Below, in pieces: positions 5,458-56,970 of a stretch of 64,000 nucleotides of DNA. The position numbers and the translations under genes are program-made. Source of the DNA: a sulfur-oxidizing endosymbiont of Gigantopelta aegis (GTDB taxonomy: Bacteria; Pseudomonadota; Gammaproteobacteria; GRL18). Position 1 is the stretch's first letter; the number at the start of each line of letters is the position of its first letter. The notes under the pieces were generated by a model. The model had not been told where the DNA came from. It made no database searches and saw only the letters and a list, made by a program, of their open reading frames with translations. The DNA lies in contig NZ_JAEHGE010000001.1 of NCBI RefSeq assembly GCF_016097415.1, positions 2,653,157 through 2,717,156 of the forward strand, written 5' to 3'.

Positions 5458-8400
5458 ATGGAAATCATTTGCCCAAAGTGTCAGACATCGTATAAGAATG
5501 TCGCAGTAAAATTCAGCCATAAATCGGTACGCTGTAAAAAGTGTCAGCACCGCTTTACGGCTATTGATAGCAGTTCCCCGCAAGAAACTCAATTATACCC
5601 ACCTGAGCTTATACCTGATCCTACATCTTATTCTAAATCTGATCCTACATCTTATTCTAAATCTGATCCTATACCAGAAGGAACAATCGATCCCCAGGAA
5701 ACACGTCTGGCTGCTATGACTCATGAGAGTCAAACTGAATCAACAAAATCATTAAGCGATCATCTGCGTGGTGATAAGGCTAAGCGTGAGTCAACACTCA
5801 GTGTATTACTCAATTTAGGTTCAGAGCAGTTTTTCGATGAAAAAAAATTATTATCAGGTGGGGCGACAGATTGGCAAGCAGGAGATGTTTTACTTGATCG
5901 TTATGAAATAAAACGACTTTTAGGTGAAGGACAATTCGGCCAAGTTTTTCAAGTACGACATCGTGACTGGGGCTTAGACCTGGCCTTGAAGACGCCTAAG
6001 CAAAAAGCCTTATCCGCAGGCTTTGAAAGTATAGAGAAAGAAGCTGAAACCTGGGTGAATCTGGATTTACACCCCAATATTGTTAATTGTTATTATGTTC
6101 GTCGTATCGATGGTATTCCACAAATTTTTAGTGAATACGTTGATGGTGGCGACTTAAAAAACTTATTGAATAGTGGGCGTTTATATAAAACTGATCCTGA
6201 CAATACTTTATTATCGATTCTTGATATTGCCATTCAATTTGCCTGGGGATTAGAATATGCCCATCAGCAAGGTTTAATTCATCAAGATATAAAGCCTGCT
6301 AATGTGATGATAAGTTCAGAAGGTATTGTAAAAATTACTGATTTTGGCTTGGCCAAAGCCGGTGCAATGCTGGTCAATAATAAGCAAAGCTTAGTCGTTG
6401 CGGGAATGGGCATGACTCCGGCCTATGCATCCCCAGAACAACTGGCCGGCAAACCATTGACTTGGCGTACTGATTTATGGAGTTGGGGCGTTTGTGTTTT
6501 GGAGATGATGCTAGGCTATTGCTCTTGGGAAGCCGGTTCAATAGCTCCCGCAATATTGGATGCGTATAAGAAAAAACAACTGGATGAAAATCCGGCATTA
6601 GCATCTATCCCCGACGCATTATATGACTTATTAATGGCTTGTTTTAATGAGGATGAATCCAAACGTCCAGACAGTCTTCATGTTGTTGCTGATACCTTAG
6701 TGCAAATCTATAATACACTATCCGAAAAAAAATATAATAAAATACAGCCTCAGGGTGGTATAGGAACAGCCTCCAGCTTAAATAATCAGGCCATTTCATT
6801 ACTGGATTTAGGTCAGAAAAATGAAGCGGTAGATGCCTGGAATAATGCTTTATCTATAGAGCCAGGGCATTTTGAAAGCCTGTTTAATTTCCTCTTTTAT
6901 CAATGGAAATACGAAGGTTTAGAAGAACAAGACTATTTACAGAAAATAGAAATGTTGTTAGAGAATCGTCATAAAAGCAATATTTCTAAAAGCGATCTTC
7001 CTAGAAATAAGGCTCAACAAAAAGCAAGAATCAAGTTCGCATTAGCAAGTTTATACTTACACTTTTCATCATTTAAAAAAATACTATCGCTCTATCTCAC
7101 TGAAAAAAATCCTTTACAGTCCTTAGCTGATTTATCCTATGAAAATGAGAAAAAAATCGTAGGGCTAGCCTTATGTGAGCAATATCGGCTTGATAAAAAC
7201 GCCCCACATTGGCAATTGATTGCTAATTGCTTGAAAGATGTTATTGCAAGCAATGCTTCTGATCCCTATACAAATACAGCTTATACTTTGGCTTTACAAC
7301 GAAGTGGCCAAACACGCTTGGCAAACAAGTTCTTTAAGGCCAGTTCAGCGATGGGTATCATTCCCAGGCAATTAAAACAGGCTGTTGCTCTTTTTCTTCC
7401 GGGTTATGAAGTACTTTATCGCATTGCAAAAAAGAGTATCAGTTTTTCTCAATTTGTAAATAATGATGAAAATATTGTTCTCAATCAAGGGAGTCGATTA
7501 TTTCTTTGGAGTATAAAAGCTAAAAAGACGCTGAGAGAAATGTGTGGGCATATTGGAAAAATAACGGCCTTTTGCATCAGTAGTGATGAAAAACTACTAT
7601 TAACCGGTTCTGATCAGGGTGATGTAAGAATTTGGTCAATGCAAACGAGCGAATTACTGCACGTTTGGTCTGCCCATGATGAAGCGATTAATGCGCTACA
7701 AATTTCTGCCTGTGGACAATATGTTTGGACAACGTGTAATGACAGTCTATTGTACTTATGGCAGGTTGATAAGAAACAGCGCTTAAATTCATTCTATGGT
7801 GAAGGCCATAGTGGTGAAATTATGGCCATACATTTATCTCCTTTTGTTGGCTCCTCAGCGTCTGCTATAGAAGACACTTTAGTGCCTAATGGGCTGATTG
7901 CTTCTGCATCAGCCGACAATATCATACGTATTTGGGAGCTTGTTACAGGAAGAACTTTAATTCTTTTGTCGGGTCATAGCATGCCCGTTGGTGCGGTTCA
8001 ATGGCTTGATGAAACTCACGTCTTATCAGCAAGCTATGATAAAACTATTCGCTTATGGGATATTAGCTCTGGTCAGTGTCAGAAAGTCTACAAGGGCCAC
8101 CAGGGTATTGTTAATACTCTGAAAGCAGCCACAGAAGGTCACTTTTTTCTCTCCGGCAGTAGTGATGGTGACTTGCGCTATTGGGATATCAAAACAGCAT
8201 CGTCCTTTACCTTAACTCAATTCAATAGTGCTATTAGCCATATTAGCTTAGATCATTCTAATCACTTTGCTAGTGTAGTGACCTTATCCGGTGTGCATAT
8301 TGTAGAAACTAATAATATTTATCGCTATCATGCTACTTATTTATTTTCCTTGCCTGAATCGGCAATGGAAATTGATCAGCTGTCACGCTTATTTGAGCAG

Positions 8401-10401
8401 AGTATCAGTCAGGCAAAAGCGGCATTGGATAAAAACAAAATTGCAGCAATCGCTCATGTAGAAAATGCCCGTGCTATTCAAGGTTATGAGCGTGATTATA
8501 GTGCTTTTAAATTTTGGGCGGGTTTCTATCTTTATTTCCCCCGGATAAAGTTAAAAGATGTTTGGAAATATAATGAATTAAAAGCGCATCAGGCTAGAGT
8601 ATTGGCCTTAGAATTATCACCCTCAAATCATTTCTTATATTCACTGGGTCAGGATCAATGCCTTTATCAGTGGGATATTCAGAGTCAAAAAAAGAAGCGG
8701 ATTTTAGAGCAACATCAACAGGCAATTAATCTTATCAAAGTCAGTGATGATGGTGCAGCCATATTACTTGCCTGTGGAAAAAATATTTTTCTTAAAGATA
8801 TTAAAACGGCTAAACAACTATCATTGTTTAGCCATCATAATGCTGATGTATTAGCGATGACGCTCACGGCTGAAGGACGTTTTTGTTTGTCTTGCGATGA
8901 TCAGGGTAAGTTTTATTTATGGCGCTTATTGACCGGCGAAATGATGGCGAACTTGAGTGACAAAAGCCATCATGTTGCGGTTGTTAATATTACTCAGGAT
9001 GGCCGCTTCATTTTAACCGGACAGCGTAATAATAATCATATTGCATTATGGGATATCGCCACGGGAAAAGTAGTCGATCAATTTTCAGAACATGACAATA
9101 TCGTCACGAGTATAGCGTCTACCACGGATGGTTTATATTTCGTTTCTGCCAGTGCGGACAGTAGTTTACGTTTATGGAAAACTCAGTCCAGCCGGACAAA
9201 ATCACTGCGGGTGATGAAAGGGCATAGCCAACGTATTAATCAGGTTTGTATTGATGGACAAGGGAAAATTGCTCTGTCGGTCAGTGATGACAAGTCACTG
9301 AGGATATGGAGTTTAGCCAGTGGTGAATGCTTGTATGATTTTGAACGTATTGATACTAAAGATACGAGCATTAATATTAGTCTTGATGGGCAATTTGCAT
9401 TTTCTGGTGATGCACAGGGCTCGATTATGTTTTGGTGTCTGGATTGGTTTTTAAAGAAAAATATTCAATTGGAATGGAATCATGATGCAGACATCTATCT
9501 GCAAAACTATTTTTCTACACATAGCAGTAAAGAGCCCGTTAAAGAACTGAACAATATTCGTCGATTGCTAAAGTATGCTGGCTTTGGAGCGATGAATGAT
9601 AATGAAATTAACATGCAATTGCTGCATTTTTCACAAATAAATATAAATACGCTATTGCCTGGCAGTCGATTAAATTCACCAAAAACCACTTTAAAACAGG
9701 GTGTCAATAAAAAACCAATACGGTCAAATAAATTGACTTATGTCATGCTGTTTTTTATTGTATTTCTGGGCTTAATCTTTGTGACTATCGACCAGCCTAT
9801 CGAAGAACCGCAGCGGGAGACATTAACACTTAATGTCTCTGAGCAAAACACCATTAATAATATGATGGATTTAATTATTCCTCTTGCCAGACTAAATGAA
9901 GCCGCTACGTTTGTGAATGGACGGCTTGACAGAAGCACATTACTGGTACCATTAAATATGAAAAATTTCAGGCAACGTTTTCAATTGGGTGAAAACACGC
10001 TTGTCGATGACTGGAATAATAAATATATTTATAAGGGAACTATCACCGGTCCATTTAGAGGACGTATGATTTTACGTTCTGCGGGCAGGGATCAGCAACT
10101 TAATACCGAAGATGATCTCTTGCTAACGGGCTTTCCTCATTGGCGCTATCTGGAAGTAAAAAGAAATAATGTGAGCTTGTTAAAACTGTCAGAAATAAAG
10201 GTGCGTTATGATATTGAGTCAAATCTGAAAGAAGTATTGCCCGAAAATGATCGAGATCATGTCATCGAAGAAAATAATGATGATGCTGAGCTTATTAATA
10301 ATGGACTCGATAGTGAAAAGAATGAACAATTAGAAACCATTGATGAGGGAATAGAAGTTATGATCCCTCCCGAAGATAAGCGTCCCGTTCTTGTTGAATA
10401 A
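5458..10401 (+). CDS. Giant membrane-anchored Ser/Thr kinase: zinc ribbon, kinase, TPR, WD40, pseudopilin-like tail
   Basis: A 1647-residue multidomain protein. Residues 1-35 are an MJ0042-type zinc ribbon (C5, C8, C26, C29). Residues 50-70 contain a duplicated DPTSYSKS unit. The kinase spans about 148-420: LGEGQFGQV loop, lysine in LALKTP, HQDIKPANV with the catalytic Asp kept but Gln in place of the HRD arginine, DFGLAK, and ASPEQ. TPR-like helices follow (about 440-640). WD40 repeats form two blocks, about 690-950 and 1045-1330, at least twelve in total (for example DKTIRLWDISSG, DSSLRLWKTQ). One transmembrane helix lies near 1427-1445. The roughly 200-residue tail should be periplasmic and includes DDWNNKYIYK and SAGRDQQLNTEDDLLL, resembling GspG-type pseudopilin C-termini. 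It is first gene of a kinase-kinase-phosphatase operon. Function is inferred as an envelope-sensing kinase on a propeller scaffold; the substrate is unknown. Confidence 0.85.
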   Translation: MEIICPKCQTSYKNVAVKFSHKSVRCKKCQHRFTAIDSSSPQETQLYPPELIPDPTSYSKSDPTSYSKSDPIPEGTIDPQETRLAAMTHESQTESTKSLSDHLRGDKAKRESTLSVLLNLGSEQFFDEKKLLSGGATDWQAGDVLLDRYEIKRLLGEGQFGQVFQVRHRDWGLDLALKTPKQKALSAGFESIEKEAETWVNLDLHPNIVNCYYVRRIDGIPQIFSEYVDGGDLKNLLNSGRLYKTDPDNTLLSILDIAIQFAWGLEYAHQQGLIHQDIKPANVMISSEGIVKITDFGLAKAGAMLVNNKQSLVVAGMGMTPAYASPEQLAGKPLTWRTDLWSWGVCVLEMMLGYCSWEAGSIAPAILDAYKKKQLDENPALASIPDALYDLLMACFNEDESKRPDSLHVVADTLVQIYNTLSEKKYNKIQPQGGIGTASSLNNQAISLLDLGQKNEAVDAWNNALSIEPGHFESLFNFLFYQWKYEGLEEQDYLQKIEMLLENRHKSNISKSDLPRNKAQQKARIKFALASLYLHFSSFKKILSLYLTEKNPLQSLADLSYENEKKIVGLALCEQYRLDKNAPHWQLIANCLKDVIASNASDPYTNTAYTLALQRSGQTRLANKFFKASSAMGIIPRQLKQAVALFLPGYEVLYRIAKKSISFSQFVNNDENIVLNQGSRLFLWSIKAKKTLREMCGHIGKITAFCISSDEKLLLTGSDQGDVRIWSMQTSELLHVWSAHDEAINALQISACGQYVWTTCNDSLLYLWQVDKKQRLNSFYGEGHSGEIMAIHLSPFVGSSASAIEDTLVPNGLIASASADNIIRIWELVTGRTLILLSGHSMPVGAVQWLDETHVLSASYDKTIRLWDISSGQCQKVYKGHQGIVNTLKAATEGHFFLSGSSDGDLRYWDIKTASSFTLTQFNSAISHISLDHSNHFASVVTLSGVHIVETNNIYRYHATYLFSLPESAMEIDQLSRLFEQSISQAKAALDKNKIAAIAHVENARAIQGYERDYSAFKFWAGFYLYFPRIKLKDVWKYNELKAHQARVLALELSPSNHFLYSLGQDQCLYQWDIQSQKKKRILEQHQQAINLIKVSDDGAAILLACGKNIFLKDIKTAKQLSLFSHHNADVLAMTLTAEGRFCLSCDDQGKFYLWRLLTGEMMANLSDKSHHVAVVNITQDGRFILTGQRNNNHIALWDIATGKVVDQFSEHDNIVTSIASTTDGLYFVSASADSSLRLWKTQSSRTKSLRVMKGHSQRINQVCIDGQGKIALSVSDDKSLRIWSLASGECLYDFERIDTKDTSINISLDGQFAFSGDAQGSIMFWCLDWFLKKNIQLEWNHDADIYLQNYFSTHSSKEPVKELNNIRRLLKYAGFGAMNDNEINMQLLHFSQININTLLPGSRLNSPKTTLKQGVNKKPIRSNKLTYVMLFFIVFLGLIFVTIDQPIEEPQRETLTLNVSEQNTINNMMDLIIPLARLNEAATFVNGRLDRSTLLVPLNMKNFRQRFQLGENTLVDDWNNKYIYKGTITGPFRGRMILRSAGRDQQLNTEDDLLLTGFPHWRYLEVKRNNVSLLKLSEIKVRYDIESNLKEVLPENDRDHVIEENNDDAELINNGLDSEKNEQLETIDEGIEVMIPPEDKRPVLVE
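5617..5664 (+). repeat. Two tandem 24-bp units inside the kinase gene
   Basis: Two identical 24-base units beginning gatcctacatc encode DPTSYSKS twice, and a third partial unit (gatcct) follows. They lie in the low-complexity linker between zinc ribbon and kinase. Because the unit is a multiple of three, gain or loss would change linker length without breaking the frame. Confidence 0.9.
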
Positions 10402-10416
10402 TAGGATTTAGACATA

Positions 10417-11769
10417 TTGAATAAAATATCAATTAAAGTAATACATGGACAATTAAAGTCAAAAGAATTTGTCTTTGAGGAACGTACTACCTGTATCATT
10501 GGTCGGGCGATAGATAATCATATTCTGTTGCCGGATGATCAGGCGCATAGCACGATTTCTCGTTACCATTGTTTATTAGATATTAACCCACCCGATATTT
10601 GTATTCGTGATTTTGGTAGTTTGAATGGCACTTTTGTTAATGGCGAAAAAATAGGTCAGCGGGAAATAGATGCTGACTTAATCAAAGCCAAACAATTAAT
10701 TTATCCTGAATATGATTTAAAAAGTGGTGACCAATTTAAAATAGGTGAAAGTGTCTTTCAAGTTAGTATATCGGGTTCTGAAAATTTAGTTGAAAAAATA
10801 GAAAATGTGTCAACAGTTGAAGTTGATCCCTTAGATAAAATTAATCTGTTGATGAAAAAGGCCGATGATGAGCAACCGGATCTGCTGGCTATAAAGGGCT
10901 TCAATATTATAAAAAAAATAGGCAAGGGGAGTATGGGGGCTGTTTATCTGGCACATAAAAAAAATAGTTCAAGTAAAGAACCGTCTGATATTGCTTTAAA
11001 AGTAATGTTGCCAAAAGTACAAAGCAATCCCAGAACCCATCAACAATTTATTCGCGAAGCGAAAAATACCCGTTTATTGAAACACGATAATATCGTCAGA
11101 GTGCATGATGTTGGTTGCAATGATGACACCTATTTTTTTACCAGTGAATACTGTGAAGCAGGTAGTGTCTCTCAGTTAATACGAAAAAATGGTGGCAAAT
11201 TACCCTTGTTTTTAGCCTTAAAAATACTCATCAATATACTTGATGGACTTGAATATGCACATAATATAAAAATTCCTATGCTGGTTTTAGCTGATGGTAA
11301 GAAAACATCGGCAGTCGGTTTGGTGCATAGAGATTTAAAACCCGGCAATATTCTTCTGACAAAAAACAAGGGGGAATTACAGGCAAAAATTGCTGATTTT
11401 GGTTTGGCCAAAGCTTTTGATGTGGCAGGGCTGAGTGGCAGAACGGCAACCGGTGTTTCTGCGGGGACACCTTTTTATATGCCTAGACAACAAGTGATTA
11501 ACTTTAAGTTTGCCAAGCCTGAAGTGGACGTTTGGGCTGCAGCAGCGACTTTTTATCGCATGAGTACTGGTCGCTATCCACGACGTTATAGTAAAAAAAC
11601 CGATCCCTGGCTCACCACATTAAAATCACCTGTCTCACCGATTCGTACTTATGATAAGTCTATACCTAAAGCCTTAGCCAAAGTAATCGATAAGGCTTTA
11701 CTCGAACAACCCGATTTGTTTTATAAAAGTGCCATTGATTTTAAACTTGATTTGTTAAAAGTGATTTAA
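10417..11769 (+). CDS. FHA-domain Ser/Thr protein kinase
   Basis: 450 residues, starting with TTG 15 bases after the preceding kinase. Residues 1-110 form an FHA phosphothreonine-binding domain (IIGRAIDNHI, STISRYHC, RDFGSLNGTFVNG). The kinase domain is about 160-445: GKGSMGAVYLA loop, lysine in ALKVMLPK, HRDLKPGNILL with the catalytic Asp, and DFGLAK. In the activation segment the usual APE/SPE motif is replaced by FYMPRQQ, so the glutamate that normally anchors the helical lobe is absent. No transmembrane segment is seen, so it should be cytosolic. FHA-kinases with a partner kinase and phosphatase usually bind phosphorylated partners; here the giant kinase is the obvious candidate. That link is inference. 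Confidence 0.88.
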   Translation: MNKISIKVIHGQLKSKEFVFEERTTCIIGRAIDNHILLPDDQAHSTISRYHCLLDINPPDICIRDFGSLNGTFVNGEKIGQREIDADLIKAKQLIYPEYDLKSGDQFKIGESVFQVSISGSENLVEKIENVSTVEVDPLDKINLLMKKADDEQPDLLAIKGFNIIKKIGKGSMGAVYLAHKKNSSSKEPSDIALKVMLPKVQSNPRTHQQFIREAKNTRLLKHDNIVRVHDVGCNDDTYFFTSEYCEAGSVSQLIRKNGGKLPLFLALKILINILDGLEYAHNIKIPMLVLADGKKTSAVGLVHRDLKPGNILLTKNKGELQAKIADFGLAKAFDVAGLSGRTATGVSAGTPFYMPRQQVINFKFAKPEVDVWAAAATFYRMSTGRYPRRYSKKTDPWLTTLKSPVSPIRTYDKSIPKALAKVIDKALLEQPDLFYKSAIDFKLDLLKVI

Positions 11770-11772
11770 CTT

Positions 11773-12543
11773 ATGACTAATAATTTATTATCTGTTATTA
11801 ACATTAAAGCATATGCCGGTCTGTCTGATCCTGGACTGGTGCGTAACAAGAATGAAGATAATTATGCGCTATTGCCTGAGCAAGGATTGTTTTTTGTTGC
11901 TGATGGTGTCGGTGGTATGCCATCGGGTGATATTGCCTCAATGCTGGTGCTTGAAGTGTTGCCATCTTTAATACAGCAACGTCTTGAGCAACAGCGATTA
12001 TTTAAACATGATGAGGTCATAGTCTGTTTACGACAGGCAGTGATCGATTTGAGTAATCGCTTGTTAGCGGAAAGTCAGCATCATGCCAGCTATAGCGGCA
12101 TGGCTTCAACATTGGTGTTAGTGCAGTTCTTACAAGATCGACTCTATGTGGTGCACTTAGGTGATAGCCGTGCTTATTTGTTAAAAGATAAGACTTTATC
12201 CCAAATAACCTGTGATCATACTTTAGTGAGAGATTTAGTACAGGCGGGTGCGATTACAGAAGAAGATGCCTTAACACACCCCGGGAAAAATCAATTAGTA
12301 CAGTATATGGGCATGGAGCTTGCCCCGAATCCAGATGTGAATACCTTGTCTATCTGGTCGGGAGAAAAAATATTGCTGTGTTCTGATGGTTTGACTGATA
12401 TGCTGAGTGAACAGGAGATTGCTCAGATATTAATAGACAATCCTAAGCCTGATAAAGCCTGCCAAATCTTGATTGAGTCGGCTAATGCTGCTGGTGGCAA
12501 GGACAATGTGACTGCAGTTATTGTTGATTTAAAATCGGGCTAG
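11773..12543 (+). CDS. PP2C-family Ser/Thr phosphatase
   Basis: 256 residues, a PPM/PP2C phosphatase that would reverse the kinase reactions of the two upstream genes. Metal-binding motifs are present in order: RNKNEDNYAL, FFVADGVGGMPSGD, GDSRAYLL, SDGLTDMLSEQE and GGKDNVTAVIVD. No membrane segment is seen. It starts three bases after the FHA-kinase stop, so translation is very likely coupled. Similar kinase/FHA/phosphatase trios sit in type VI secretion loci, but no type VI structural gene is present here. Confidence 0.92.
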   Translation: MTNNLLSVINIKAYAGLSDPGLVRNKNEDNYALLPEQGLFFVADGVGGMPSGDIASMLVLEVLPSLIQQRLEQQRLFKHDEVIVCLRQAVIDLSNRLLAESQHHASYSGMASTLVLVQFLQDRLYVVHLGDSRAYLLKDKTLSQITCDHTLVRDLVQAGAITEEDALTHPGKNQLVQYMGMELAPNPDVNTLSIWSGEKILLCSDGLTDMLSEQEIAQILIDNPKPDKACQILIESANAAGGKDNVTAVIVDLKSG

Positions 12544-24610: not shown

Positions 24611-25489
24611 CTACTGTTGTTGTTGTTGTTGTTGTTGTTGTGTTTCGCCGCCGCTGGTAAAGGGGGTGACGTAGACTAGCAGGCCAAAAACTGGGTTGTC
24701 GATATAATGTAATTCACGGCTGCGCATTTTTCGATTTTGCTTAAATAAATAGACTTGGTTGGTGCATGAGTTGTTGTCATTTATTGCATCTGTATTTTGC
24801 GTTTCGAGTTGCGATGTGCCATTTTCTAATTGCTTATCTAAAGCGGCATCACTGGCTTTTTCTATAGTCGGACTGGTTTGTTCAGATGAATATTCGCATC
24901 GAGAGGCTTTTAGGTCAACTTGCATGTGTAGGAAGCGTGAGACATATAATTTTATTTCACCGCTAGGGATTAAACTATCAGAAAATTGATTTGAGATGAT
25001 TTTAATGGGTAGTGCCTGGTGCTTTGATAGTGAACGTTGTGTCCAGCCAAAATGTGCTAAAAGTTTAAAGTTAGGTGAATAACGCAAATGAGCAGCTGAT
25101 TCGGCCAGTTTGTAGTTTTCTGCTGAAATGGCTGCGATGTCATTTCTAAGGGCTAAAAAACGTTTATTTTGTAGGTCATATTCGGCTAATGCCGGGCTGT
25201 CATCAGTGAGTGTTTGATTGTCAGTTATTGTTTGTGCTGTGCCAATGTTTTTATTCAATGAGCTTTCATTTGTATTGTCATTGAATGTCCCATCAAAAAG
25301 ATCGGGGCGACTCCAGCGTTCATCGCGTTTGCCTTGTTCATTCAAATGTTGAAAAAGGATGACTTCAACGATGTAGTATTGTTTCTTTTCAGTTGCTACG
25401 TCCGTATTGGCTGTTTCTTCTGCTTGAAGCGAGGTGCTGGCGCAGAGTAATAGCAGTAAATAACGTCCATATTTTAACAGAATGTGCAT
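24611..25489 (-). CDS. csiV: CsiV-family envelope protein with polyglutamine tail
   Basis: 292 residues. Signal peptide 1-23 (LLLLLCASTSLQAEE), so periplasmic. YYIVEVILFQHLN and the C-terminal MRSRELHYIDNPVFGLLVYV match the CsiV family, named for a protein linked to cell-wall synthesis control in Vibrio. The middle is low-complexity and poorly conserved. The final nine residues are all glutamine, encoded by one CAG and eight CAA codons just before the stop. Transcribed alone, divergent from the deformylase gene. Confidence 0.85.
   Translation of the reverse strand: MHILLKYGRYLLLLLCASTSLQAEETANTDVATEKKQYYIVEVILFQHLNEQGKRDERWSRPDLFDGTFNDNTNESSLNKNIGTAQTITDNQTLTDDSPALAEYDLQNKRFLALRNDIAAISAENYKLAESAAHLRYSPNFKLLAHFGWTQRSLSKHQALPIKIISNQFSDSLIPSGEIKLYVSRFLHMQVDLKASRCEYSSEQTSPTIEKASDAALDKQLENGTSQLETQNTDAINDNNSCTNQVYLFKQNRKMRSRELHYIDNPVFGLLVYVTPFTSGGETQQQQQQQQQ
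24614..24640 (-). repeat. Trinucleotide microsatellite at the 3' end of csiV
   Basis: Nine consecutive glutamine codons (eight identical CAA, one CAG) end directly at the stop codon. Slippage here would alter tail length without a frameshift. Confidence 0.95.
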
Positions 25490-46916: not shown

Positions 46917-48070
46917 AGCGCAGCGATGGCCACCCCGGGAATTTCATGAGCCAGCGACGTGCCTGACGGCGCTACTAAAAAATCATAAGTACAGCAATGA
47001 TTTGCTCGAAAAATGGCCAATTGCTTGTAAAATCGGCCATTTTCTCCTGCAAGAGTAAAGTGACTTATGAGAACTTACAAGCAATTGACACAAGAACAAA
47101 GATACTACATTTCGACTGAGATTAAAAATGGCATTTCCCAGTCTAAAATTGCTCAGGCGATTGAGGTGAGTAAATCTACTATATGCCGTGAAATTAAACG
47201 CAACGCTGGTTTACGTGGCTATCGATTTAAGCAAGCTCAAGAAAAAGCCGTTAAGCGTCGCTACAATGCTTCTAAAGCAATTAAAATGACGGATGACATG
47301 ATTGCCCTTATTGATGAAAAGCTTTCACAGCACCAGTGGAGTCCTGAACAGATATCAGGTTGGTTACTGAATGACAAAATGCTACTTCTTAGCCATGAAC
47401 GTATTTATCAACACATATGGGATGATAAGAAGCAAGGTGGTGATTTACATCAGTATTTAAGGCGTCAGGGAAAGAAATACCAAAAGCGTGGTAGTAACGG
47501 TAAAAGCAGTCGAGGACAAATAATTAATCGAATTTCCATTGATGACCGTCCTAAGATTGTTGATGATAAACGTCGTGTTGGTGACTGGGAAATTGATACA
47601 GTGATCGGTAAAGGACACAGTGGTGCTCTGGTCACGATTGTAGAAAGAAAAACGCTTTACACATTAGTAGCAAGAGTGAATGGCAAACAGGTTGATTGGG
47701 TGACACAAGCAACAATACAATTGCTTAAACCCTTTAAAGACAGGCTTCATAGTATTACCGCAGACAATGGCAAAGAGTTTGCTTATCATGAGCAGGTAAG
47801 CAAAGCTCTTGATACAGCATTTTATTTTGCCCACCCTTATTCTTCATGGGAGCGAGGGTTAAATGAAAATACTAATGGACTGATTAGACAATATTTTCCT
47901 AAAGATACAGACTTTAAAGAAGTGACTGATAAAGAGGTTTACAACATGATGGAAAAACTTAATAATAGACCTAGAAAGGCACTCGGCTTTCAAACACCAT
48001 TCCAGGCAATGAAAAAATCATTTGCAAGAACTGGAACTTCCTGCGTTGCACTTCAGAGTTGAATCCGCGT
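46917..48070 (+). mobile_element. IS30-family element, copy 1 (intact transposase)
   Basis: About 1154 bp shared almost base for base with 55816-56970. Shared sequence starts at agcgYagcgatggccacc and ends gttgaatccgcgt. It sits directly against the IS4 remnant. Ends are defined by comparison of the two copies, not by target duplications. Confidence 0.82.
47067..48062 (+). CDS. IS30-family transposase
   Basis: 331 residues. N-terminal helix-turn-helix (KQLTQEQRYYISTEIKNGIS, SKSTICREIKRNAG), then the DDE core: GDWEIDTVIGKGHSGALVTI, SITADNGKEFAYHEQ, and the final catalytic Glu region GLNENTNGLIRQYFPK, ending GFQTPFQAMKKSFA. Fully open and typical length, so this is likely the active source copy. 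It differs from copy 2 at only a few bases. Confidence 0.92.
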   Translation: MRTYKQLTQEQRYYISTEIKNGISQSKIAQAIEVSKSTICREIKRNAGLRGYRFKQAQEKAVKRRYNASKAIKMTDDMIALIDEKLSQHQWSPEQISGWLLNDKMLLLSHERIYQHIWDDKKQGGDLHQYLRRQGKKYQKRGSNGKSSRGQIINRISIDDRPKIVDDKRRVGDWEIDTVIGKGHSGALVTIVERKTLYTLVARVNGKQVDWVTQATIQLLKPFKDRLHSITADNGKEFAYHEQVSKALDTAFYFAHPYSSWERGLNENTNGLIRQYFPKDTDFKEVTDKEVYNMMEKLNNRPRKALGFQTPFQAMKKSFARTGTSCVALQS

Positions 48071-53835: not shown

Positions 53836-53936
53836 ATCACAGAAAAGGGCAACCTGTTCGAAAGTTCAGGCTCGCAAAGCTACCATTCTAAGGGTGTTAT
53901 TTTATTTAGCATCTATGAAAGTGGGGTTACCTGGAC
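53836..53936 (+). promoter_or_regulatory. c-di-GMP-I (GEMM-I) riboswitch aptamer candidate
   Basis: The sequence follows the GEMM-I consensus closely: CACA then AGGGCAACCTG, a GAAA tetraloop closed by CCTG/CAGG, CTCGCAAAGCTACC (the CGCAAAGC joint holding the ligand-stacking A), a second hairpin arm with variable tip (53886-53925), and GGGGTTACCTGG closing the fold. It lies 95 bases before the rhodanese-like gene. I could not define the expression platform: no clear terminator precedes the AGGAGAAG ribosome site. Basis is pattern recognition against the known consensus. Confidence 0.78.
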
Positions 53937-54030: not shown

Positions 54031-54882
54031 ATGATGAAAAGCTCTAATTTTTTATTATTGATTGTTTTATTGTGTTTGTGGTTTGCAAATAGTTATGCAA
54101 GCGATGAATCAAGCCAATTCCCTAAGCGACATTTTTATCCACAACTCAGTTATATTGATACCAATACATTTGCAGCCGGTGTTAAAGATAATAATTTTGC
54201 TGTGATTGATGTCCGTGATAAAACCTCATTCAATGCCTTGCATGTTAAGGGCTCAACAAATATTTTTGTCAAAAGTAAGGATTTTGAGCATCAAATTCTG
54301 CAATTCATAGAGACGCATCATAAACCAATCGTGGCATATTGTAATGGCATCTCTTGTTCTAAAAGCTATACTGCATCGGTAAAAATTCTGCAATTATTTA
54401 AAGCCAACAATATTCAACAAAAAATATTGACTTATGACTCAGGTATTAATGCTATTGCCTATAGTTATAATGATTTAGTGTTAAAAAATGGCCTTGAAGT
54501 TTCAGACAGAAACCCTTTGATCTCATTCAAAAAAATAAAAAAACATACTCTTGAACCAGAAGCTTTTGAACGGTTCGTTATGGACAATAAAACTAATGAT
54601 TATGCAATTTTAGATATCAGAGAAAAAAGTGATAGATTAGCCTTTAAACTCTTTATGTTTCAAAAAGAAAAAAATATCACACTGAGTGAAAGAGAAGAAT
54701 TAATTGCCTACTTGAACTCTATTAAAACGAGTAAAAAAACATTATTAGTTTATGATACAGCCGGACGCCAGATTAATGGCCTCTATGAGATGATTAAGAT
54801 TACCGGCATAAAGAAATGGCATTATATGCAAGGTGGTGAGTACGGTTACTCACAATATGCCCGTCAATCTGTAGGCCTATAA
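54031..54882 (+). CDS. Exported protein with two rhodanese-like domains
   Basis: 283 residues. Signal peptide 1-23 (LLLIVLLCLWFANSYA), so periplasmic. First rhodanese domain about 40-155 with FAVIDVRDKTSFNALHVKGS and a candidate active loop AYCNGISCSKSY (two Cys). Second about 175-280 (YAILDIREKSDR, LLVYDTAGRQINGLYEM) lacks the active cysteine. May handle sulfane sulfur or serve in thiol chemistry, but no assay-grade motif is seen. Strong ribosome site AGGAG. Located behind the c-di-GMP riboswitch candidate, which would tie its synthesis to biofilm/motility signalling. Confidence 0.8.
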   Translation: MMKSSNFLLLIVLLCLWFANSYASDESSQFPKRHFYPQLSYIDTNTFAAGVKDNNFAVIDVRDKTSFNALHVKGSTNIFVKSKDFEHQILQFIETHHKPIVAYCNGISCSKSYTASVKILQLFKANNIQQKILTYDSGINAIAYSYNDLVLKNGLEVSDRNPLISFKKIKKHTLEPEAFERFVMDNKTNDYAILDIREKSDRLAFKLFMFQKEKNITLSEREELIAYLNSIKTSKKTLLVYDTAGRQINGLYEMIKITGIKKWHYMQGGEYGYSQYARQSVGL

Positions 54883-55855: not shown

Positions 55856-56970
55856 ACGCGCCTGACGGCGCTACTAAAAAAATCATAAGTACAGTAATGA
55901 TTTGCTCGAAAAAATGGCCAATTGCTTGTAAAATCGGCCATTTTCTCCTGCAAGAGTAAAGTGACTTATGAGAACTTACAAGCAATTGACACAAGAACAA
56001 AGATACTACATTTCGACTGAGATTAAAAATGGCATTTCCCAGTCTAAAATTGCTCAGGCGATTGAGGTGAGTAAATCTACTATATGCCGTGAAATTAAAC
56101 GCAACGCTGGTTTACGTGGCTATCGATTTAAGCAAGCTCAAGAAAAAGCCGTTAAGCGTCGCTACAATGCTTCTAAAGCAATTAAAATGACGGATGACAT
56201 GATTGCCCTTATTGATGAAAAGCTTTCACAGCACCAGTGGAGTCCTGAACAGATATCAGGTTGGTTACTGAATGACAAAATGCTACTTCTTAGCCATGAA
56301 CGTATTTATCAACACATATGGGATGATAAGAAGCAAGGTGGTGATTTACATCAGTATTTAAGGCGTCAGGGAAAGAAATACCAAAAGCGTGGTAGTAACG
56401 GTAAAAGCAGTCGAGGACAAATAATTAATCGAATTTCCATTGATGACCGTCCTAAGATTGTTGATGATAAACGTCGTGTTGGTGACTGGGAAATTGATAC
56501 AGTGATCGGTAAAGGACACAGTGGTGCTCTGGTCACGATTGTAGAAAGAAAAACGCTTTACACATTAGTAGCAAGAGTGAATGGCAAACAGGCTGATTGG
56601 GTGACACAAGCAACAATACAATTGCTTAAACCCTTTAAAGACAGGCTTCATAGTATTACCGCAGACAATGGCAAAGAGTTTGCTTATCATGAGCAGGTAA
56701 GCAAAGCTCTTGATACAGCATTTTATTTTGCCCACCCTTATTCTTCATGGGAGCGAGGGTTAAATGAAAATACTAATGGACTGATTAGACAATTTTTCCT
56801 AAAGATACAGACTTTAAAGAAGTGACTGATAAAGAGGTTTACAACATGATGGAAAAACTTAATAATAGACCTAGAAAGGCACTCGGCTTTCAAACACCAT
56901 TCCAGGCAATGAAAAAATCATTTGCAAGAACTGGAATTTCCTGCGTTGCACTTCAGAGTTGAATCCGCGT
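55816..56970 (+). mobile_element. IS30-family element, copy 2 (frameshifted)
   Basis: Nearly identical to 46917-48070, same orientation. Right end gttgaatccgcgt abuts the metallochaperone gene and supplies its last codons. The transposase is broken by a one-base change. Confidence 0.85.
55968..56962 (+). pseudogene. IS30-family transposase, frameshift near the third catalytic residue
   Basis: Identical to the intact copy except for one substitution (Val to Ala near residue 221) until about 56791, where caatattttcc of copy 1 reads caatttttcc here. The lost base ends the frame at residue 285. The remaining 3' part still matches base for base in another frame. The DDE core is cut after the ENTNGLIRQ block, so activity is unlikely. 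Confidence 0.9.

Follow-up and report, generated by a model that had tools for sequence, protein, structure and literature searches.

A linked WD40-kinase, FHA-kinase and PP2C phosphatase in an endosymbiont of Gigantopelta aegis, with a candidate phosphothreonine docking array

How two Ser/Thr kinases and a phosphatase encoded side by side might find and control one another is the question raised by a three-gene locus of a sulfur-oxidizing endosymbiont of Gigantopelta aegis. The locus was analyzed within a window of 64 kb (contig NZ_JAEHGE010000001.1, positions 2,653,157 to 2,717,156 of the forward strand), to which all coordinates given below refer. The first gene, K (large kinase; 5458..10401, + strand, ATG start), encodes a protein of 1647 aa in which a Zn ribbon, a linker with threonine motifs, a Ser/Thr kinase, TPR-like helices, two WD40 propellers, a predicted transmembrane helix and a pseudopilin-like domain follow one another. 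The second, F (10417..11769, +, TTG start, 450 aa), joins an FHA domain to a Ser/Thr kinase, and the third, P (11773..12543, +, ATG start, 256 aa), encodes a PP2C-type Ser/Thr phosphatase. All three genes are intact and are separated by 15 (K-F) and 3 bases (F-P), coordinates that an earlier model-made reading of the sequence (the original prediction) had given exactly. Promoter-like and terminator-like sites at the locus are no more frequent than in shuffled sequence, so the limits of the operon were taken from the gaps and from synteny. K-F-P is a compact signaling operon of two linked kinases and one phosphatase.

Across many bacterial phyla the parts of this module are found again as neighbors. 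A scan of genome contigs with the K sequence alone found no relative, and an alignment-based scan did find relatives; with two motifs of the K kinase as anchors, 79 loci were collected across phyla (from the best 80 of 85), 13 of the endosymbiont's own family and 66 distant. The distant loci belong to what we take to be Nitrospirae, Nitrospinota, cyanobacteria, Chloroflexi, Acidobacteria, Verrucomicrobia, Ignavibacteriae, Pseudofrankia and others. F was called near K when an FHA match of at least 35 bits and a kinase match of at least 100 bits lay no more than 2.5 kb away on the same strand, or were fused to K. By this rule F stands beside or within K in 28 of the 66 distant loci and in 21 of the 43 that have at least 3 kb of known sequence on both sides, P lies near K in 15/66 and 12/43, respectively, and both accompany K in 10 of the 43 well-flanked loci. 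Counting either strand, 27 F-type open reading frames (ORFs) were found in the 270 kb near K vs 2 in the remaining 616 kb, one of these being separated by a second K and the other lying at 2531 bases. The reverse test gave a similar picture in 39 genomes, chosen for holding K and therefore biased in rate: F-type loci (at least about 450 bits) occur in 28 of them, 34 loci in total with those of three genomes split (the partial F of G062, G071 and G078 was left out), and at 27 of the 34 a K kinase domain is encoded within 5 kb on the same strand. The commonest gene order elsewhere is F, P, K, and the order of the window, K, F, P, recurs in Ktedonobacter (loci L103 and L106). Symploca (L104, L143) has K and F fused into one protein of 1732-1733 aa. 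Four K proteins of Verrucomicrobia and Elusimicrobia (L157, L163, L166, L168) begin with what reads by eye as an FHA domain, and F matched their genomes at E 1e-50 with its kinase part alone. Homologues of K are therefore found together with F and P, in distant phyla as well, and this linkage and the fusions are direct observations.

Within the family, the domain chain of K is found in ten full-length orthologues from separate assemblies, with 42-56% identity along the whole chain, which rules out an assembly fusion artefact. In a sample of 24 genomes (the endosymbiont's own, 15 of the genus and 8 others) K was detected in 14 (E 1.7e-211 or lower) and F in 12 (E 4.1e-122 or lower). K-F-P stands in this order on one contig in ten genomes including that of the window, with K cut at its 5' end in genome G019, and the order holds at every locus of the genus and of a sister genus for which there is sequence. 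Contig ends split the cluster in G004 and G023, the contig of G014 and that of G022 stop within K or directly after it, and G003 holds an apparent F C-terminus with P at a contig edge, K not being found there. A ycfD-like gene lies a few genes upstream of K at nine loci (window, G004, G005, G008, G010, G013, G019, G021, G023) and on the opposite side in G009, and P is followed by a carbonic anhydrase or rlmD-like gene at eight (window, G003, G004, G005, G008, G010, G013, G015), the flanking genes being presumably ycfD/roxA, rlmD and carbonic anhydrase from the look of their sequences. K of the family was not found in 10 of the 24 genomes, several of which are incomplete; in G007, which is 100% complete, both flanks are present on two contigs without the module genes, so the module is dispensable.

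A possible basis for the contact between K and F lies in the linker that joins the Zn ribbon of K to its kinase, where a short motif around threonine, of the type PQETQLA in this family, is repeated. The window protein has two copies, PQETQLY at residues 41-47 (5578..5598, +), in which E43, T44 and L46 are invariant in 11 sequences, and PQETRLA at residues 79-85 (5692..5712, +); both are candidate phosphothreonine docking sites. Since the copies of the window read PQETQLY and PQETRLA, a search of the endosymbiont's genome for codons that spell exactly PQETQLA returned nothing. The pattern [QK][EQ]T[QRMLVI][LMVIA] occurs in 1-7 copies in each of 14 family sequences and P.ET in 0-7 copies (2 in the window, 7 in L108, none in L107), and positions Q42-L46 are 64-100% conserved vs a mean linker identity of about 53% (positions 37-119 minus the motif). 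Distant phyla carry versions of their own: PAET[VI][LM]A in L127, PQETVAA in L131 and L134, P.ATVAF in L119, and APTVxE or AATVLE in Acidobacteria. When 40 distant N-terminal segments of K of at least 25 aa were compared with 1000 shuffles, P.ET, a pattern taken from the family, gave 21 copies vs 2.6 (maximum 11). P..T[VIQRLM], which was picked after the sequences were viewed and has to be read with that against it, gave 45 copies vs 7.5 (maximum 17), and at least three copies in 8 distant proteins vs 0.12 (maximum 2). The same frame with Ser in place of Thr gave 7 copies, though Ser is the commoner residue (402 vs 312 Thr). Among the eight distant loci with at least three P..T motifs F is adjacent in seven; at the eighth (L134) the sequence is cut at K. 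The repeats themselves are observed directly; together with the invariant ligand-binding residues of the FHA domain described below, the sequence pattern suggests a candidate phosphothreonine docking array for F. Neither the array nor the K-F fusions figured in the original prediction, whose proposal that the FHA-kinase docks on K gains indirect support from the array, the invariant FHA residues, the Symploca fusion and the FHA-like N-termini of K.

The array invites comparison with two systems in which phosphothreonines recruit FHA proteins. In PknG, a rubredoxin-kinase-TPR protein, autophosphorylated N-terminal threonines anchor the FHA protein GarA (PMC8546545), and in A. tumefaciens phosphorylated TssL, through the peptide SSWQDLPpTVVEITEE, recruits Fha (PMC5995506). 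By these analogies the threonine array is the likely landing site for F, and the letters PTVVE of the TssL peptide are present in the linker of L112. The reading that we consider probable, with a fair share of doubt, is a Ser/Thr phospho-relay in which F docks through its FHA domain on linker phosphothreonines of K and PP2C resets the system. K would be the scaffold kinase of this self-contained relay. Its linker threonines in the PQETQL-type repeats would be phosphorylated by K itself or by F, and the FHA domain of F would bind them and so bring the second kinase to K, near whatever the TPR and WD40 surfaces hold. Docked F may then phosphorylate K or a client, and PP2C would strip the phosphates and reset the array. 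In this family only, a C-terminal membrane helix and a pseudopilin-like domain would tether an otherwise cytosolic relay to the membrane, with the domain outside. The phosphorylation of the repeats, the binding by FHA, the direction of the relay, its clients and a role of the tail as sensor are what we infer.

The rival to be weighed most closely keeps K, F and P in one pathway in which the linker is no docking site: the FHA domain would read F itself or phosphorylated clients, and the threonine repeats would be a flexible low-complexity spacer. Several observations tell against the relay as drawn above, the first of them, on missing arrays and on linker repeats in general, also favoring this rival. 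Six Nitrospirota loci with F (L118, L135, L136, L139, L145, L148) have linkers without an array, and cyanobacterial K starts directly with the kinase and has no linker, so the array cannot be the sole contact between K and F. Tandem linker repeats arise easily. A self-similarity test on threonine gave p of at most 0.01 for 12 of the 14 linkers of the family and of at most 0.02 for 8 of the 21 distant ones that were long enough and held enough threonine. Because P, A and E frequently reach similar scores, and repeats of other residues are equally strong in many linkers, this result shows repeats and not a preference for threonine. Of the 21 distant P.ET copies, 18 come from L127, L131 and L134 (Nitrospinota), and the three distant proteins with at least two copies are a number that shuffles also reached (mean 0.22). 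The linkage has its gaps as well: 22 of the 43 well-flanked distant loci fail the 2.5-kb rule for F, a few being split or lying just beyond it, and 7 of the 34 F-type loci lack a same-strand K within 5 kb. Sequence distances of K and F correlate (r 0.73 over 31 loci, with none of 5000 permutations as high), as expected of a pair that travels together, and this correlation is partly common descent. The choice of F by FHA and kinase score and of K by a kinase motif also favors conservation. An evenly drawn sample of 398 genomes from the endosymbiont's phylum, in which up to four candidates were scored per genome and members can be missed, gave F in one genome and K in five, the endosymbiont's own included, which makes the module look rare there; four K loci of this sample have no F in the fetched stretch, one of them being cut at K.

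Other findings argue for docking rather than for a spacer. The threonine core is kept in unrelated phyla despite different surroundings, Ser is not enriched in the same frame, and the conservation of Q42-L46 stands well apart from that of the linker as a whole. F is adjacent in 7/7 distant loci that have at least three motifs and upstream sequence, vs 21/58 others, the array locus that is cut at K being counted in neither group. On this evidence the spacer explanation is rather unlikely, and the phospho-relay with docking on the array is preferred below.

In F, the FHA domain covers residues 27-81 according to Pfam (10495..10659, +; E 8.7e-16, 58.6 bits vs a cut-off of 20.7), and its ligand residues G29, R30, S48, H51, G71 and N75 are invariant in 41/41 F proteins, with N70 kept in 36/41. 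The kinase domain (residues 163-404, 10903..11628, +) has an HRD catalytic loop, and its catalytic residues are kept in every sequence with letters at these positions (40-41 of 41). P matches Pfam PP2C with 62.5 bits (cut-off 20.3) and scores 227.1 bits, slightly under the cut-off of 230, with the narrower Stp1_PP2C model. These hidden Markov model (HMM) matches bear out the assignment of F as an FHA-kinase and of P as a PP2C enzyme. In ten loci with Nitrospirota-type PP2C proteins of about 580-600 aa (L109, L118, L124, L135-L137, L139, L145, L148, L202) an FHA-like part was seen in the C-terminal portion, at about residues 300-360, the six Nitrospirota loci that have F and no array being among the ten; it is weak (19-28 bits, and 45-46 bits in two others with a broader profile), and it raises the possibility that the phosphatase too may dock on phosphothreonines.

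A kinase, an FHA reader and a phosphatase encoded in one cluster also recall the threonine phosphorylation pathway of the type VI secretion system (T6SS), PpkA-Fha-PppA (PMC5995506), and the module could be a displaced or ancestral relative of it, the more so as the phospho-TssL peptide resembles some linker motifs. F was tried as a T6SS TagH protein and rejected, with 20.2 bits vs a cut-off of 120.25, and it has a kinase of its own. K differs in architecture, and in the parts of the T6SS literature available no counterpart of K is named. As the original prediction had remarked, no T6SS gene was recognized on reading the ORF list of the 64-kb window, neither a T6SS profile search nor a search of the rest of the genome having been made, and the neighbors of 31 loci have no gene in common. 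A T6SS origin is accordingly very improbable. The same low standing is given to an anti-phage defense kinase system of the MADS6, PD-T4-6 or Stk2 kind. Its support comes from PADLOC, a library without cut-offs, in which K matches mad6 with 202.7 bits and F matches the PD-T4-6 model PDLC04042 with 200.1 bits (positions 8-270 of 292). These matches span the kinase domains and would be expected of many bacterial kinases, the NCBIfam MADS6 equivalog gives 125.3 bits for K and 91.8 for F vs a cut-off of 460, and the neighbors of the locus are housekeeping genes in most of the genus; a defense role therefore seems far-fetched.

The domains of K could be placed by HMM searches and by a structure model. 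The MJ0042-type Zn ribbon (residues 1-36, 5458..5565, +; 24.6 bits vs a cut-off of 20.9) has invariant C5, C8, C26 and C29. The kinase domain (residues 149-411, 5902..6690, +; Pfam Pkinase, E 3.5e-45) has the complete catalytic set K178, E195, D277, N282 and D295 of DFG, so that the intact K, D and DFG noted originally are confirmed; in addition, its catalytic loop reads HQD and not HRD, which makes it a non-RD kinase, Q being present in 64/78 K proteins. The residues E, D, N and D are kept in 78/78 and the beta-3 Lys in 73 (four gaps, one Arg), counts that are partly built in for the alpha-C Glu, as it sits inside an anchor motif used to find the loci. These active sites, like the genes and domains themselves, are directly established. 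An AlphaFold2 model of residues 425-1355, run with ten orthologues (mean predicted local distance difference test score, pLDDT, 77.6; predicted template modelling score 0.45), places a TPR-like helical part (residues 438-646, 6769..7395, +) before two WD40 propellers. Propeller 1 (residues 652-950, 7411..8307, +; 30 strands) and propeller 2 (residues 1048-1327, 8599..9438, +; 27 strands) are seen by HMM and model, with a modelled helical insert between them (residues 954-1046, 8317..8595, +). With about seven blades each, some fourteen WD40 repeats are predicted, in keeping with the 'at least twelve' in two blocks counted before. The TPR-like helices fared less evenly, appearing in the model with Pfam TPR matches below the cut-offs. 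The Zn ribbon by HMM and the single membrane helix by hydropathy (residues 1426-1444, 9733..9789, +) were both recovered, and the hydrophobic segment occupies an equivalent position in 11/11 full-length sequences (window and ten orthologues).

Beyond this helix K has the outer tail of some 200 residues that had been predicted, and the tail is not featureless. The structure prediction that yielded the two propellers was matched by one of the tail (pLDDT 83.7), and the model likely has a pseudopilin fold. Residues 1454-1592 (9817..10233, +) form a GspG/PulG-like domain seen in this family only, recognized by the model and by sub-threshold Pfam matches. Its structural matches include GspG, EpsG and PulG with Z from 6.5 to 5.2, the first 15 rows being pilin-like and the first five VIA rows being major pseudopilins of the type II secretion system (T2SS; Z 5.5-6.5, root-mean-square deviation 3.9-5.6 over 89-97 residues); all Z lie under 8, the safe level of the tool, and a lower Z can mean only a common arrangement. 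Foldseek gave 3g20 as best match (E 0.15) and none at 0.001 or below. Against Pfam T2SSG the window tail scores 15.1 bits, below the cut-off of 21, and of five orthologous tails four also stay below it (12.2-16.2 bits) and one has no listed match. At the sequence level the tail profile missed the GspG of the endosymbiont itself (2.8 bits overall, best domain 0.6), and the motif DxWG...SxGxD...D of the tail lines up with this true GspG. The likeness to GspG rests on fold, sub-threshold Pfam matches and this shared motif. A conserved loop SxGxD...TxDD, S1541-D1553 (10078..10116, +), falls, in the alignment, in the region where GspG has its calcium loop, and major pseudopilins are described as having a calcium-binding loop (PMC6692295).

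Such a tail, in a genome that holds a true gspG among its pseudopilin-like ORFs, raises the further possibility of a checkpoint of T2SS (or of a pilus), in which the tail would join or monitor the pseudopilus and the relay would control secretion. The GspG/PulG major pseudopilins share with the tail of K the likely fold and the DxWG...SxGxD...D motif; unlike them, the tail lies at the C-terminus of a 1647-aa kinase, with the helix far from the N-terminus (1426-1444 of 1647) and with no prepilin motif recognized ahead of it. In fold the tail matches pseudopilins moderately (Z no higher than 6.5, Foldseek E 0.15), and the tail profile matches 10 of 13 family loci (the other three are cut before the tail) and 0/66 distant ones. 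A secretion checkpoint is therefore quite improbable. A strong hydrophobic segment is absent from 42 of the 45 long K proteins of distant loci; most distant K proteins thus seem to be soluble, which makes envelope sensing unlikely as the core function of the module. Many of them end in a stretch like GCAGYGWLRPEGVRREL, whose counterpart, by eye, precedes the membrane helix in the window K, and helix and tail were thus probably added in this lineage. As a whole the original interpretation is supported in part, for the self-contained module and, indirectly, for the docking of FHA; it also proposed that the propellers may gather substrates, that PP2C may reset the phosphorylated kinase and that the tail may sense the envelope, the last of these being unlikely as the core function.

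The self-contained nature of the module is reflected in its neighborhoods, where clustering of the genes around 31 loci found no fourth gene common to them. The clusters obtained were a loose one touching 9 loci, without a fixed position, two with members at 4 loci each (an ABC ATPase, and a hydrolase-like gene just after K in Nitrospirota) and one with members at 3. The hydrolase-like gene (L109, L118, L139, L145) encodes about 300 aa, lies directly behind K on the opposite strand and reads like a metallo-beta-lactamase fold. Three K loci without F, from related genomes of the own phylum (L198, L200, L201), have another set of neighbors that keep their sizes, with ORFs of about 540, 400 and 570-585 aa. 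In the K of Elusimicrobia (L121, L168) an FHA domain comes first, followed by apparent GAF and nucleotide cyclase domains and then by kinase and WD40. Elsewhere in the window, a cyclic di-GMP-I riboswitch (53838-53934, +; 56.1 bits) lies directly upstream of ORF 54031-54882, which reads like a rhodanese-type protein. Two near-identical transposase ORFs, which we take to be IS30-like, are found at 47067-48062 and 55968-56825 (+; 331 and 285 aa, the second being shorter and diverging at its end), and ORF 24611-25489 (-) has a C-terminal run of about ten glutamines.

Taken together, K, F and P may represent an undescribed cross-phylum system, though we put this forward tentatively and with less assurance than the docking itself: a phosphothreonine array of variable copy number on a scaffold kinase would receive an FHA-kinase and be reset by PP2C, and would in this gammaproteobacterial family be anchored at the envelope through a pseudopilin-like domain, acquired by capture, which may sense calcium or the state of secretion. 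In eukaryotes, receptor tails or TQ clusters recruit signaling proteins, and the array would be a bacterial counterpart of these. Multivalent phosphothreonine recruitment is usually regarded as a eukaryotic device; if docking on the array is true, bacteria use it to recruit one kinase to another. The added pseudopilin-like domain would be a case of a cytosolic relay becoming linked to the envelope. Lists of bacterial WD40-kinases and FHA-kinases go back about twenty years, and in the parts of these accounts available most entries have neither a partner nor a ligand (PMC1262709, PMC2176072). The conserved linkage gives each of them a candidate partner, and the array is a concrete candidate ligand that makes an unstudied bacterial relay directly testable with synthetic peptides.

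Searches of the literature on combinations of WD40, FHA, PP2C and kinase domains, with subscription literature mostly outside their scope, found no description of the module, and its closest known relatives each share some of its parts. PkwA and the cyanobacterial WD40-kinases have the kinase-WD40 combination, and FHA-kinases the other one (PMC6113231, PMC2176072, PMC1262709); the available parts of these papers list the two as separate proteins and do not mention K-F linkage, a threonine array or PP2C. An actinobacterial zinc-ribbon kinase occurs with PP2C and a vWA protein, an FHA-kinase not being mentioned in the available text (PMC7159879). The ArnA/ArnB-ArnC/ArnD network of Sulfolobus likewise brings together a Zn finger, FHA, Ser/Thr kinases and a phosphatase, and the phosphorylated C-terminus of ArnB is required for the binding of ArnA; it differs from the module in being archaeal, in having a vWA protein as target and in its domain arrangement (PMC6509490). 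A search of the PDB with the K profile named PknB, StkP and PknA as best matches, PknG not being named among the best 60 of 2317. PknG-GarA/OdhI of Actinobacteria is nevertheless like K in carrying a metal-binding domain, a threonine-bearing segment, a kinase and TPR in one chain. The rubredoxin-like domain of PknG is accompanied by a disordered N-terminal segment of threonine autophosphorylation, whose phosphothreonines recruit the FHA partner (PMC8546545). The order is reversed, since in PknG the threonine segment is N-terminal and the rubredoxin adjoins the kinase, whereas in K the Zn ribbon comes first. The module differs from PknG-GarA further in that the partner is itself a kinase, and in its WD40 propellers, its PP2C neighbor and its repeat array.

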